Part shown: positions 10,108-12,122 of the stretch, in pieces
How positions within the stretch are numbered: the stretch's first letter is position 1
Layout of the letters: every line of letters starts with the position of its first letter
Made by a program: the position numbers and the translations under genes
Assembly: GCA_023249105.1 (NCBI GenBank)
Contig: JAHFDG010000017.1
Span: 1 to 64,000, forward strand
DNA: 64,000 bases
DNA from: Candidatus Methanoperedens sp.
GTDB lineage: Archaea; Halobacteriota; Methanosarcinia; Methanosarcinales; Methanoperedenaceae
Direction of reading: 5' to 3'
Notes under the pieces: model-generated
Seen by the model: the letters and a program-made list of their open reading frames with translations, nothing else
What the model was told of the DNA's origin: nothing
The model's database searches: none

Positions 10108-10635
10108 TCACCATAATTTGCGCAGGATATAATAAAGAACAAGAATAAGAACAATCCCGGCTGCCCAGATTACAGGTTCCCCAGGCGTGTGTAACCCCGA
10201 TGCGGGATTTTTGCCAACAGGATTTTTGACATCTTTGGGTATCATTTCAGTTATATCAGGAACGGGTAAATCAGGGTCAACGTACTGGTAAACAGGGGAT
10301 AGCGCGACTAAGGTTTGTTCGGATGAACCATAATATACGTTGTCAACTTTGATGGATAATATCGTCCTGTTGCTTTTATTGTAAATGAAATAATCCCTTG
10401 TCACTATTTCACTTTTTACTATCTTATCGTTTTCCGTTAATTGGAGCCAGACGGAACCATCGCTGCTTACACTTTTAACGCTGAGCATATATCCCTGGTA
10501 AAGCCCATAGGAATCACCGGAAGTAAGATATATGCTTGTTCCGTTTAACAGGATATCACCTGTCCCTGAACCTGTGAATGCCAAAAAGAAAAATAAAAAG
10601 AATAAAAATAAAATCGGTGCGTTTCGTCCCATCAT
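10108..10635 (-). CDS. Small S-layer-like domain protein with C-terminal anchor
   Basis: A 175-residue exported protein. Signal peptide at residues 1-25 (Phe-rich), one C-terminal membrane helix (about 152-170, VIWAAGIVLILVLYYIL) followed by RKLW. Between them the motif order GLYQGYMLSVKSV, VWLQLTENDKIVKSE, YFIYN, VDNVYYGSSEQ, VYQYVDPDLPVP matches half of a Methanosarcina-type S-layer domain (compare the protein at 31941). It stops four bases before pelota and is on the same strand, so it may share the pelota transcript; a functional link is doubtful. Confidence 0.6.
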   Translation of the reverse strand: MMGRNAPILFLFFLFFFLAFTGSGTGDILLNGTSIYLTSGDSYGLYQGYMLSVKSVSSDGSVWLQLTENDKIVKSEIVTRDYFIYNKSNRTILSIKVDNVYYGSSEQTLVALSPVYQYVDPDLPVPDITEMIPKDVKNPVGKNPASGLHTPGEPVIWAAGIVLILVLYYILRKLW

Positions 10636-10699: not shown

Positions 10700-10954
10700 A
10701 TGGCGATATCGGTAAGATTATGTTCTGGAAGAACAGCTTTTGAAGTGAGCACTAATATTAAAATTGATCTTGTTAGCGCAAGCAGGATTTTCAAAACAAA
10801 AGTAGCGACAAAACACATACTGCTTTTGAATTATAATGGAGTGGAAATCTCGATGTATCCGAGCGGAAGAATGCTTATCAAAGCCGGGACCAAGGAAGAT
10901 TCGCTTGACATAGCAAGAAATCTATTAGCTGAGATGGGGTATAAAGAGATTTGA
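10700..10954 (+). CDS. Conserved-looking 84-residue protein, function unknown
   Basis: I do not recognise a named family. The translation is non-repetitive, with alternating strands and two helices (ILLLNYNGVEISMYPSGRML then IKAGTKEDSLDIARNLLAEMGY), a pattern reminiscent of one half of a TBP-like fold (PSGRMLIKAGT recalls the TBP strand PSGKVVVTGA). That would make it a single TBP-like repeat; this is speculative. Own TATA box 27 bases upstream. Confidence 0.55.
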   Translation: MAISVRLCSGRTAFEVSTNIKIDLVSASRIFKTKVATKHILLLNYNGVEISMYPSGRMLIKAGTKEDSLDIARNLLAEMGYKEI

Positions 10955-10995: not shown

Positions 10996-11220
10996 ATGAA
11001 AAGCTACCTAATCGTATGGTTTAACAGCGAGGGCGGAAAGCCGTCAGAGATTAATCAGCGGCTTATGTCACTGGGATTCAAGCCCATGCAGGGAACTCAC
11101 GATTACGTCTATGAATGGGGACAAAATGTGAACGTAGATGAGATTCTGCGATTTGGTGATAAAGTCCAGGTGACACTTCAGGGTTTGAATGTGATGTTCA
11201 AGCTTGAAACTATTAATTAG
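10996..11220 (+). CDS. Small 74-residue protein, function unknown
   Basis: Begins MKSYLIVWFNSEGGKPSEI and ends QVTLQGLNVMFKLETIN. A compact alpha/beta pattern (beta strand, helix SEINQRLMSLGF, strand YVYEWGQN, helix VDEILRFGD, strand) like a ferredoxin-like fold. No catalytic motif. It follows the 10700 gene by 41 bases, with AT-rich sequence ATAATATTAATAATAA that could be its own promoter. Confidence 0.5.
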   Translation: MKSYLIVWFNSEGGKPSEINQRLMSLGFKPMQGTHDYVYEWGQNVNVDEILRFGDKVQVTLQGLNVMFKLETIN

Positions 11221-11296
11221 ATAATGTTATCATATTTTTTACCTGTTTTGTTATCGAAAACTATTAATCATGATAAAACAAAACAATCATTTACCT

Positions 11297-11316
11297 TATT
11301 ACAAATGTTTGTAATA
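11297..11316. promoter_or_regulatory. 20-bp perfect palindrome
   Basis: TATTACAAATGTTTGTAATA: 9-bp arms with a two-base centre. It is downstream of the 10996 gene and directly upstream of the structured stretch at 11317-11590. It could be an operator, a short hairpin of the RNA, or the preferred target of an inserted element. Confidence 0.5.
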
Positions 11317-11590
11317 GGGTGCACGCTATGATGAGCTAGCAAGAAATCGGCAGGATGACCATATTGGAATAAAGTAAATTCCAAGTTTCCCGGGCGTGAA
11401 TGCCCTGTGACCGTTCAAGGTCTAAAAGGAAGTGGTTTGACTGGGATTTCTCCCAGGTTGGGGGTGCTATAAGAAAGCGCATGGAGCGCAATTTACAGCG
11501 AAGCCAACACAGAATTTAGTGTTGCGAGGGTGCTGTAAGCCCTGAAAGACAGCCTTGAAGGGTCGGCTCATCAACCCATTACTATTTCTG
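11317..11590 (+). ncRNA. Highly structured intergenic RNA candidate
   Basis: About 270 bases between converging genes with no plausible protein frame but a dense run of short hairpins on the plus strand: GGGCGTGAATGCCC (11393-11406), GACCGTTCAAGGTC (11410-11423), CTGGGATTTCTCCCAG (11441-11456), GCGCATGGAGCGC, CAACAC...GTGTTG and GGGTGCTGTAAGCCC. The composition is GC-richer than the flanks, as expected for a structured RNA in an AT-rich genome. It lacks the conserved cores of RNase P RNA, SRP RNA and tRNA that I looked for. It opens with GTGC, so a 5' piece of a group II intron is one possibility, but I see no domain V or reverse transcriptase. Confidence 0.45.
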
Positions 11591-11594
11591 CACA

Positions 11595-12122
11595 TCATTT
11601 TGCCAATGCATATTCCATATTCGAAAGAAGAGCGGTTTCCTCTTTGAACCGATACTCCCTCTGGTTTCGATTGCCTCGCCGCATGAGTATATCATCCCTG
11701 TACATTCTGGCCAGGTATGTTGATACCGTGCTCAGGTTGATTTTCCCGTACACGCTTTCATAATGTCGTTTTACATCGAGGGATGAGAACCATATCCTTG
11801 GATATTCAAACCGCAGGAACATCTCTAACCGCTCTTTCAAAGTAAGGGGTTCAGACTCGTCTATACCTGTTGAAATTAGTGTTTCCTGCATAGCTTCAAC
11901 TTTGCTTTTTGCTGCCGTCATAATGAATTTAGTGGCAGACATGGCAAGGAATTCGCCTTCGAACTGTGCATTTGCTTTTGTTCCGTCATCCTTTTCCAGG
12001 AGGATGAACACTTCATCAGCTTCGATTGAATTGAGATAAGTTACAGCAAGTTCGGCGCAGTCAGGCCCTTTATAATTTATGCTGCCTGCATTTTTTCCTT
12101 CGATTTCGAGCCGTATTTTCAT
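11595..12122 (-). CDS. Winged-helix domain protein, probable transcription regulator
   Basis: A 175-residue protein. Residues 1-85 form an alpha/beta part (KIRLEIEGKNAGSINYKG...EADEVFILLEKDDG) that I do not recognise; residues 100-165 look like a winged helix (PRIWFSSLDVKRHYESVY, then LSTVSTYLARMYRDDILMRR and a basic wing GNRNQREYRF). So an N-terminal sensing or dimerisation domain fused to a C-terminal DNA-binding domain is likely. Its leader is unusual: a 15-codon upstream frame with a strong ribosome site ends six bases before this start, and contains a perfect hairpin. A TATA-like GCTTAAATAC lies at 12251-12260 (minus strand). Confidence 0.6.
   Translation of the reverse strand: MKIRLEIEGKNAGSINYKGPDCAELAVTYLNSIEADEVFILLEKDDGTKANAQFEGEFLAMSATKFIMTAAKSKVEAMQETLISTGIDESEPLTLKERLEMFLRFEYPRIWFSSLDVKRHYESVYGKINLSTVSTYLARMYRDDILMRRGNRNQREYRFKEETALLSNMEYALAK

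Follow-up and report, generated by a model that had tools for sequence, protein, structure and literature searches.

A predicted structured non-coding RNA, outside the described RNA families, in Candidatus Methanoperedens

Positions 11292-11577 (+) of the window, the whole 64,000-nucleotide stretch of DNA analysed here, almost certainly correspond to an RNA gene, as judged from sequence comparison. The window belongs to contig C57 of genome G000, from Candidatus Methanoperedens (ANME-2d). The best overall explanation, to which a probability of about 0.5 is assigned, is that the gene encodes a free-standing structured ncRNA of an undescribed family, acting in trans and bound by protein. Its limits, which define an RNA of about 285 bases, are approximate, being the coordinates of a full-length match to covariance model R1. 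The extent of 11297-11590 originally proposed was close to this: the true limits are slightly wider, at about 11292-11577, and a promoter, at about 11227-11268, has to be added. The region had also been described as lacking a coding frame, which is confirmed both by the ORF list of the window, where no ORF of at least 60 aa overlaps it, and by the occurrence of stop codons in all six frames, in the window copy and in the seven homologues checked. The gene lies between a 74-aa ORF (10996-11220, +; from the ORF list) and a convergent gene (11595-12122, -) for a conserved winged-helix-like protein of 175 aa, considered to be outside the RNA system, whose stop-codon end is found about 17-18 bases from the 3' limit of the RNA.

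Folding of positions 11297-11600 (+) gives an energy of -98.5 kcal/mol, compared with -82.8 +/- 5.0 in dinucleotide shuffles (z -3.18), and none of 100 shuffles equals it. The - strand also folds strongly (z -4.63); the energy is therefore informative about structure, not about strand. For the analysis of covariation, 28 copies from Methanoperedenaceae, with pairwise identities between 63 and 97%, were aligned by MAFFT without regard to structure (alignment A1). The fold considered is composed of 86 pairs and was obtained by extending the RNAalifold structure, including two pseudoknots and one alternative hairpin; standard pairs are found in 94.4% of its cells. Compensatory changes, affecting both sides, are present at 44 of the 86 pairs, a number which is not reached in any of 500 shuffles. 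The corresponding values are 20.4 in the shuffles and 11-18 in slid structures; when partners are slid by 1-3 columns, pairing falls to 33-43%. Of the 53 pairs of the RNAalifold structure, 31 are changed on both sides. As related sequences can exceed shuffles, the slid controls and a second family, reported below, carry more weight. The very structured row of short hairpins seen in the initial annotation is real, and also conserved: it includes a 5' hairpin and the hairpins denoted below as P2f, P2g, P4, P3b and P5.

All elements of the structure are on the + strand. The 5' hairpin, P0 (11294-11319), is paired in 98.6% of the cells; four of its five outer pairs are changed on both sides, and its lower arms are variable. 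A 20-bp palindrome, noticed earlier at 11297-11316, is indeed present, but is imperfect, being made up of two 9-base arms around 2 bases, and is part of this longer conserved hairpin, the pairs of which covary. Next to P0, the sequence GCAC (11321-11324) pairs with GTGC (11464-11467) in a pseudoknot, PK1, with 99.1% of the cells paired. In L018/L021, G-C is replaced by A-U and C-G by U-A; covariation events in PK1 are few, and the pseudoknot is lost in genus g7 of the second family, f3. The core is closed by helix P1, where GATGAGC (11330-11336) pairs with GCTCATC (11566-11572) in 28/28 sequences, three of which carry GATGAAC/GTTCATC; most P1 pairs are invariant inside each family.

Within the core, the P2 domain (P2a-P2g, 11342-11451) features compensatory changes in P2a/b, P2c, P2e, P2f and P2g. 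Two of its hairpins, P2f (11392-11405, loop GURAAU) and P2g (11409-11422, loop NNNCAA), have loops common to all three families. A kissing interaction of these loops (UGAA/UUCA) was examined by eye and rejected: it fits the window but not the relatives, where for example GUAAAU occurs with AAACAA. Hairpin P4 (11477-11489), with sequence GCGC ATGGA GCGC, is paired in 100% of the cells, and two of its pairs are changed on both sides. The P3 helix (11493-11538; 98.5% paired, six of seven pairs changed on both sides) encloses an inner hairpin, P3b (11505-11524), where the same holds for four of six pairs. P5 (11540-11562) is paired in 100% of the cells and is mostly invariant. A second pseudoknot, PK2, would be formed by GGGT at 11528-11531 and ACCC in the 3' tail (11574-11577); paired in 98.2% of the cells, with a single change on both sides, it is a weak candidate.

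The strand can be assigned from base-pair composition, since, in the 86-pair fold of the 28-sequence alignment, 145 G-U cells are counted on the + strand against 38 A-C cells, and the reverse is expected for the opposite strand. The same assignment is given by the promoter, which sits on the + strand. This is an archaeal BRE/TATA element, TCGAAAACTATTAAT (11254-11268, +). Its TATA ends 23 nt before position 11292, and the element is conserved, with a constant spacing to the RNA, across three families. In this genus, a similar BRE/TATA, TTATCGGTAGATATAAA, also precedes the genes for RNase P RNA. Upstream, three TTAYC repeats with a 12-base spacing (11227-11231, 11239-11243 and 11251-11255, +) form a box which is probably a regulatory element. 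In the 75 nt upstream of 27 Methanoperedenaceae loci, TTAYC occurs with a mean of 2.4, vs 0.29 in shuffles; the values for family f3 are 2.9 and 0.37. Promoter and TTAYC boxes are kept in three families, and transcription of the ncRNA would start at a dedicated promoter, probably a regulated one.

In Methanoperedenaceae the ncRNA is usually found downstream of pelota and convergent with the winged-helix-like gene; in f3 it is located between methyltransferase and dTMP kinase genes, and in f5 it occupies several places, with gatB among the neighbours. Second copies in Methanoperedens sit among ordinary chromosomal genes. Such differences in context indicate that the ncRNA is a transcription unit of its own. 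It could otherwise be a cis element, either a 3' UTR belonging to the upstream 74-aa gene or, for the convergent gene, an antisense RNA or attenuator, as its location between the two genes, with 17 bases separating its end from the stop codon of the convergent one, might suggest; this is very improbable, given the dedicated promoter, the persistence of the RNA at L063, L069 and L070, where upstream genes differ, and the replacement of both neighbours in f3, in f5 and at second copies. A riboswitch or 5' leader was rejected, the downstream gene being convergent both in the window and in f3.

The winged-helix-like protein is highly conserved, with homologues across the order, and gave no match in Pfam, NCBIfam and PDB sequence searches. 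It was evaluated as a dedicated partner of the ncRNA and rejected because it is widespread in the absence of the RNA: the gene is present in the RNA-less genomes G001 and G003 and in families where the RNA was not detected, and is absent beside the ncRNA in f3 and at second copies. It is thus often found next to the ncRNA without being tied to it. On the other side of the locus, the 74-aa ORF and an 84-aa one (10700-10954, +) are small and conserved, belong to no family and adjoin pelota in many Methanoperedens genomes. Another small protein of 175 aa (10108-10635, -), also adjoining pelota, shows a partial match to the S-layer domain PF07752.

The RNA was compared with known families by using Rfam 15, a scan already proposed in the initial annotation. 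No gathering match was found in the window, and none when the RNA itself was scanned at E<=10, the sole row of the latter scan falling outside the RNA and being attributable to chance; the relatives gave none at E<=0.5, and L187 none at E<=5. In the main texts of open-access papers, no description of such an RNA was found. The cores of RNase P RNA, SRP RNA and tRNA had been correctly reported as missing, and these identities were rejected in the absence of matches at the locus: the single RNase P RNA match (RF00373) in the genome lies on a different contig, G000:C19, and SRP models match neither the window nor the RNA. A C/D box sRNA was also rejected, because the C-box-like AUGAUGA (11327-11333) is a P1 arm and is not conserved, being replaced by ACGAUGA in many of the relatives and, in f3, by ACGUGGG. 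No conserved ACA, which in H/ACA RNAs lies three bases from the 3' end, is found near the inferred 3' ends, whose positions are approximate.

The alternative initially put forward, that the region is a group II intron's 5' domain, is not supported. A domain or relic of this kind, or another mobile element, could account for the several hairpins and for the second copies in some genomes, and has a probability close to nil. Group II models do not match at E<=10; the fold is free-standing and closed, a helix joining the 5' and 3' parts, and the RNA has a promoter to itself. No intron-like feature lies downstream: the ORF list includes no reverse transcriptase between 8000 and 15000, the convergent gene being directly downstream, and neither reverse transcriptase nor transposase genes lie beside second copies. 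In addition, the main copy is syntenic, the RNA is a free-standing intergenic gene in two other families, and no copy was found in the phages, plasmids and viral contigs searched. The other initial suggestion, a new ncRNA, is borne out by the homologues with their compensatory changes, by the conserved promoter and by the lack of an Rfam family. A lack of homologues with compensatory changes, which the initial annotation named as counting against it, was looked for, and the opposite was observed.

Within Methanoperedenaceae, homologues were detected by DNA search in 28 of 34 genomes and by covariance model in 29 of 34; the named contigs with homologues are mostly from Ca. Methanoperedens. At the syntenic site beside the winged-helix-like gene, the RNA is absent from G001, G003 and G014 (L176, L177 and L175, respectively). 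The first two are near-complete Methanoperedens genomes, so the ncRNA is not essential to all; its loss from whole lineages qualifies it as useful but dispensable. G014 retains the 3' junction CAACCCATCCATT, which suggests that the RNA was lost there by deletion. Two divergent copies also exist, in which tandem units of the P2 domain, three at L043:1016-1402 (G023:C79) and two at L142:5719-5962 (G008:C151), follow the same promoter, and the 3' part is not recognisable; the repetition points to P2 as a separate module.

Weak full-length R1 matches were obtained outside Methanoperedenaceae. A DNA search started from one of them led to the f3 sequences of g6 and g8, and model R2 added g7 and g9. 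The 13 f3 sequences form 76 pairs, 93.8% paired, of which 41 are changed on both sides (0/500 shuffles); this alignment was fitted to a covariance model, unlike the structure-blind A1. Helix P1 is rebuilt from other pairs: GAUGAGC/GCUCAUC, or GAUGAAC/GUUCAUC, of ANME-2d is replaced in f3 by GUGGGC/GCCCAC or AUGGGC/GCCCAU (with the flanking base, GUGGGCU/AGCCCAC and AUGGGCU/AGCCCAU). The best PDB match of the f4 MCR is the ANME-2c enzyme; for the f3 MCR, the closest PDB entries are 9qqt and 9qr1, which we take to be ANME-2d enzymes; by elimination, f3 probably corresponds to ANME-2a/b.

In genome G095, a weak R1 match (E 0.044) falls inside a 208-nt element in which the same promoter, a 5' hairpin and the P2f and P2g loops are present, together with a closing helix of 12 pairs. 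This short form was detected by DNA search in Methanosarcinaceae, with 1-4 copies in 11/11 g19 genomes and in two g22 genomes. Its loci (L220-L239), up to four per genome, are in unrelated places, one being often downstream of gatB. When 160 kb around short-form copies were scanned with R1, all 13 matches fell inside the copies; a related genome, from g23, yielded a single weak match over 280 kb. The reciprocal model R3, applied to ANME loci, produced 10 matches, 9 of them at the RNA. Because the short-form copies are mutually related, the matches do not count as independent trials. The short form is very probably homologous to the ncRNA, the link being based on short covariance model matches and on shared layout and promoter, with no full-length match; in common are the promoter, the 5' hairpin, the closing helix and the two loop motifs.

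Covariance model scans did not detect the ncRNA in most of the order. Those of the class and phylum were run with strict filters and missed known members, and so do not show that the ncRNA is missing elsewhere than in the named groups. Four pattern matches in other phyla, lacking a P1 partner, were discarded as chance; the weak covariance model matches L186, inside an HdrA-type-reading coding sequence, and L189, where the layout is absent, were likewise taken as chance. A ribozyme, or an RNA at the core of some housekeeping machine, would share with this ncRNA its size, a multi-branched core, the pseudoknot and a BRE/TATA like that of RNase P RNA genes; this reading is improbable, considering the loss from the near-complete G001 and G003 and the failure to detect the RNA in most of the order.

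As to function, the compact fold, the P2f and P2g loops, the regulated-looking promoter, the paralogues and the dispensability are best fitted by a structural, protein-bound RNA acting in trans, an activity which is proposed tentatively, at slightly less than even odds. The RNA would fold into the 5' hairpin and a multi-branched core closed by P1, and bind protein, with the conserved P2f and P2g loops as likely contact sites; the resulting RNP may serve, in certain conditions, as a regulator or scaffold of a cellular process. The next-best fit, although unlikely, is a trans-acting sRNA whose exposed loops pair with mRNAs, altering their stability or translation, as for sRNA154, an archaeal precedent (PMC5867862). 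An intergenic, free-standing, promoter-controlled RNA, with paralogues in some genomes, agrees with this possibility; a large compact fold kept over several families, with long-range helices, a pseudoknot and no long unpaired seed, argues against it. The Methanosarcina mazei RNAs sRNA154, sRNA162 and sRNA41, archaeal and intergenic as this ncRNA, differ in being described as pairing with mRNAs (PMC5867862).

Among other known systems, archaeal RNase P RNA (RF00373) is similar in size, multi-branched core and promoter, but does not match the ncRNA, the genome having its own elsewhere. OLE, GOLLD and ROOL are large structured bacterial ncRNAs of unknown function. They resemble the RNA described here in being free-standing genes with a large, conserved, covarying fold and an unknown job; the latter is archaeal and smaller (180-290 nt), and has no sequence or covariance model match to them. 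From the same order, nine highly conserved, cold-induced sRNAs of Methanolobus psychrophilus R15, with a "cold box" motif upstream of their promoters, are reported in PMC5378194. Conserved, present in several copies and preceded by a promoter motif, they are candidates for the same family, a lead provided by copy number and motif. Model R3 was run over the initial 280 kb of one g23 genome, where it found no match.

To our knowledge, archaea have few known large structured RNAs apart from those of RNase P and SRP and the guide RNAs. The predicted family is new in being outside every known RNA family, which says nothing of its way of working, and its mechanism may turn out to be ordinary. It is distinctly unlikely that the ncRNA represents a novel type of archaeal RNA machine, either a ribozyme or an RNP, whose function is not documented for any other RNA; if it did, this machine would go back to the ancestor of three or more Methanosarcinales families and be common to methanotrophs and methanogens. 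Anaerobic methane-eating archaea are central to the methane cycle, and are not available in pure culture. The ncRNA is strongly conserved in these organisms, and its relatives in methanogens would allow tests in culture.
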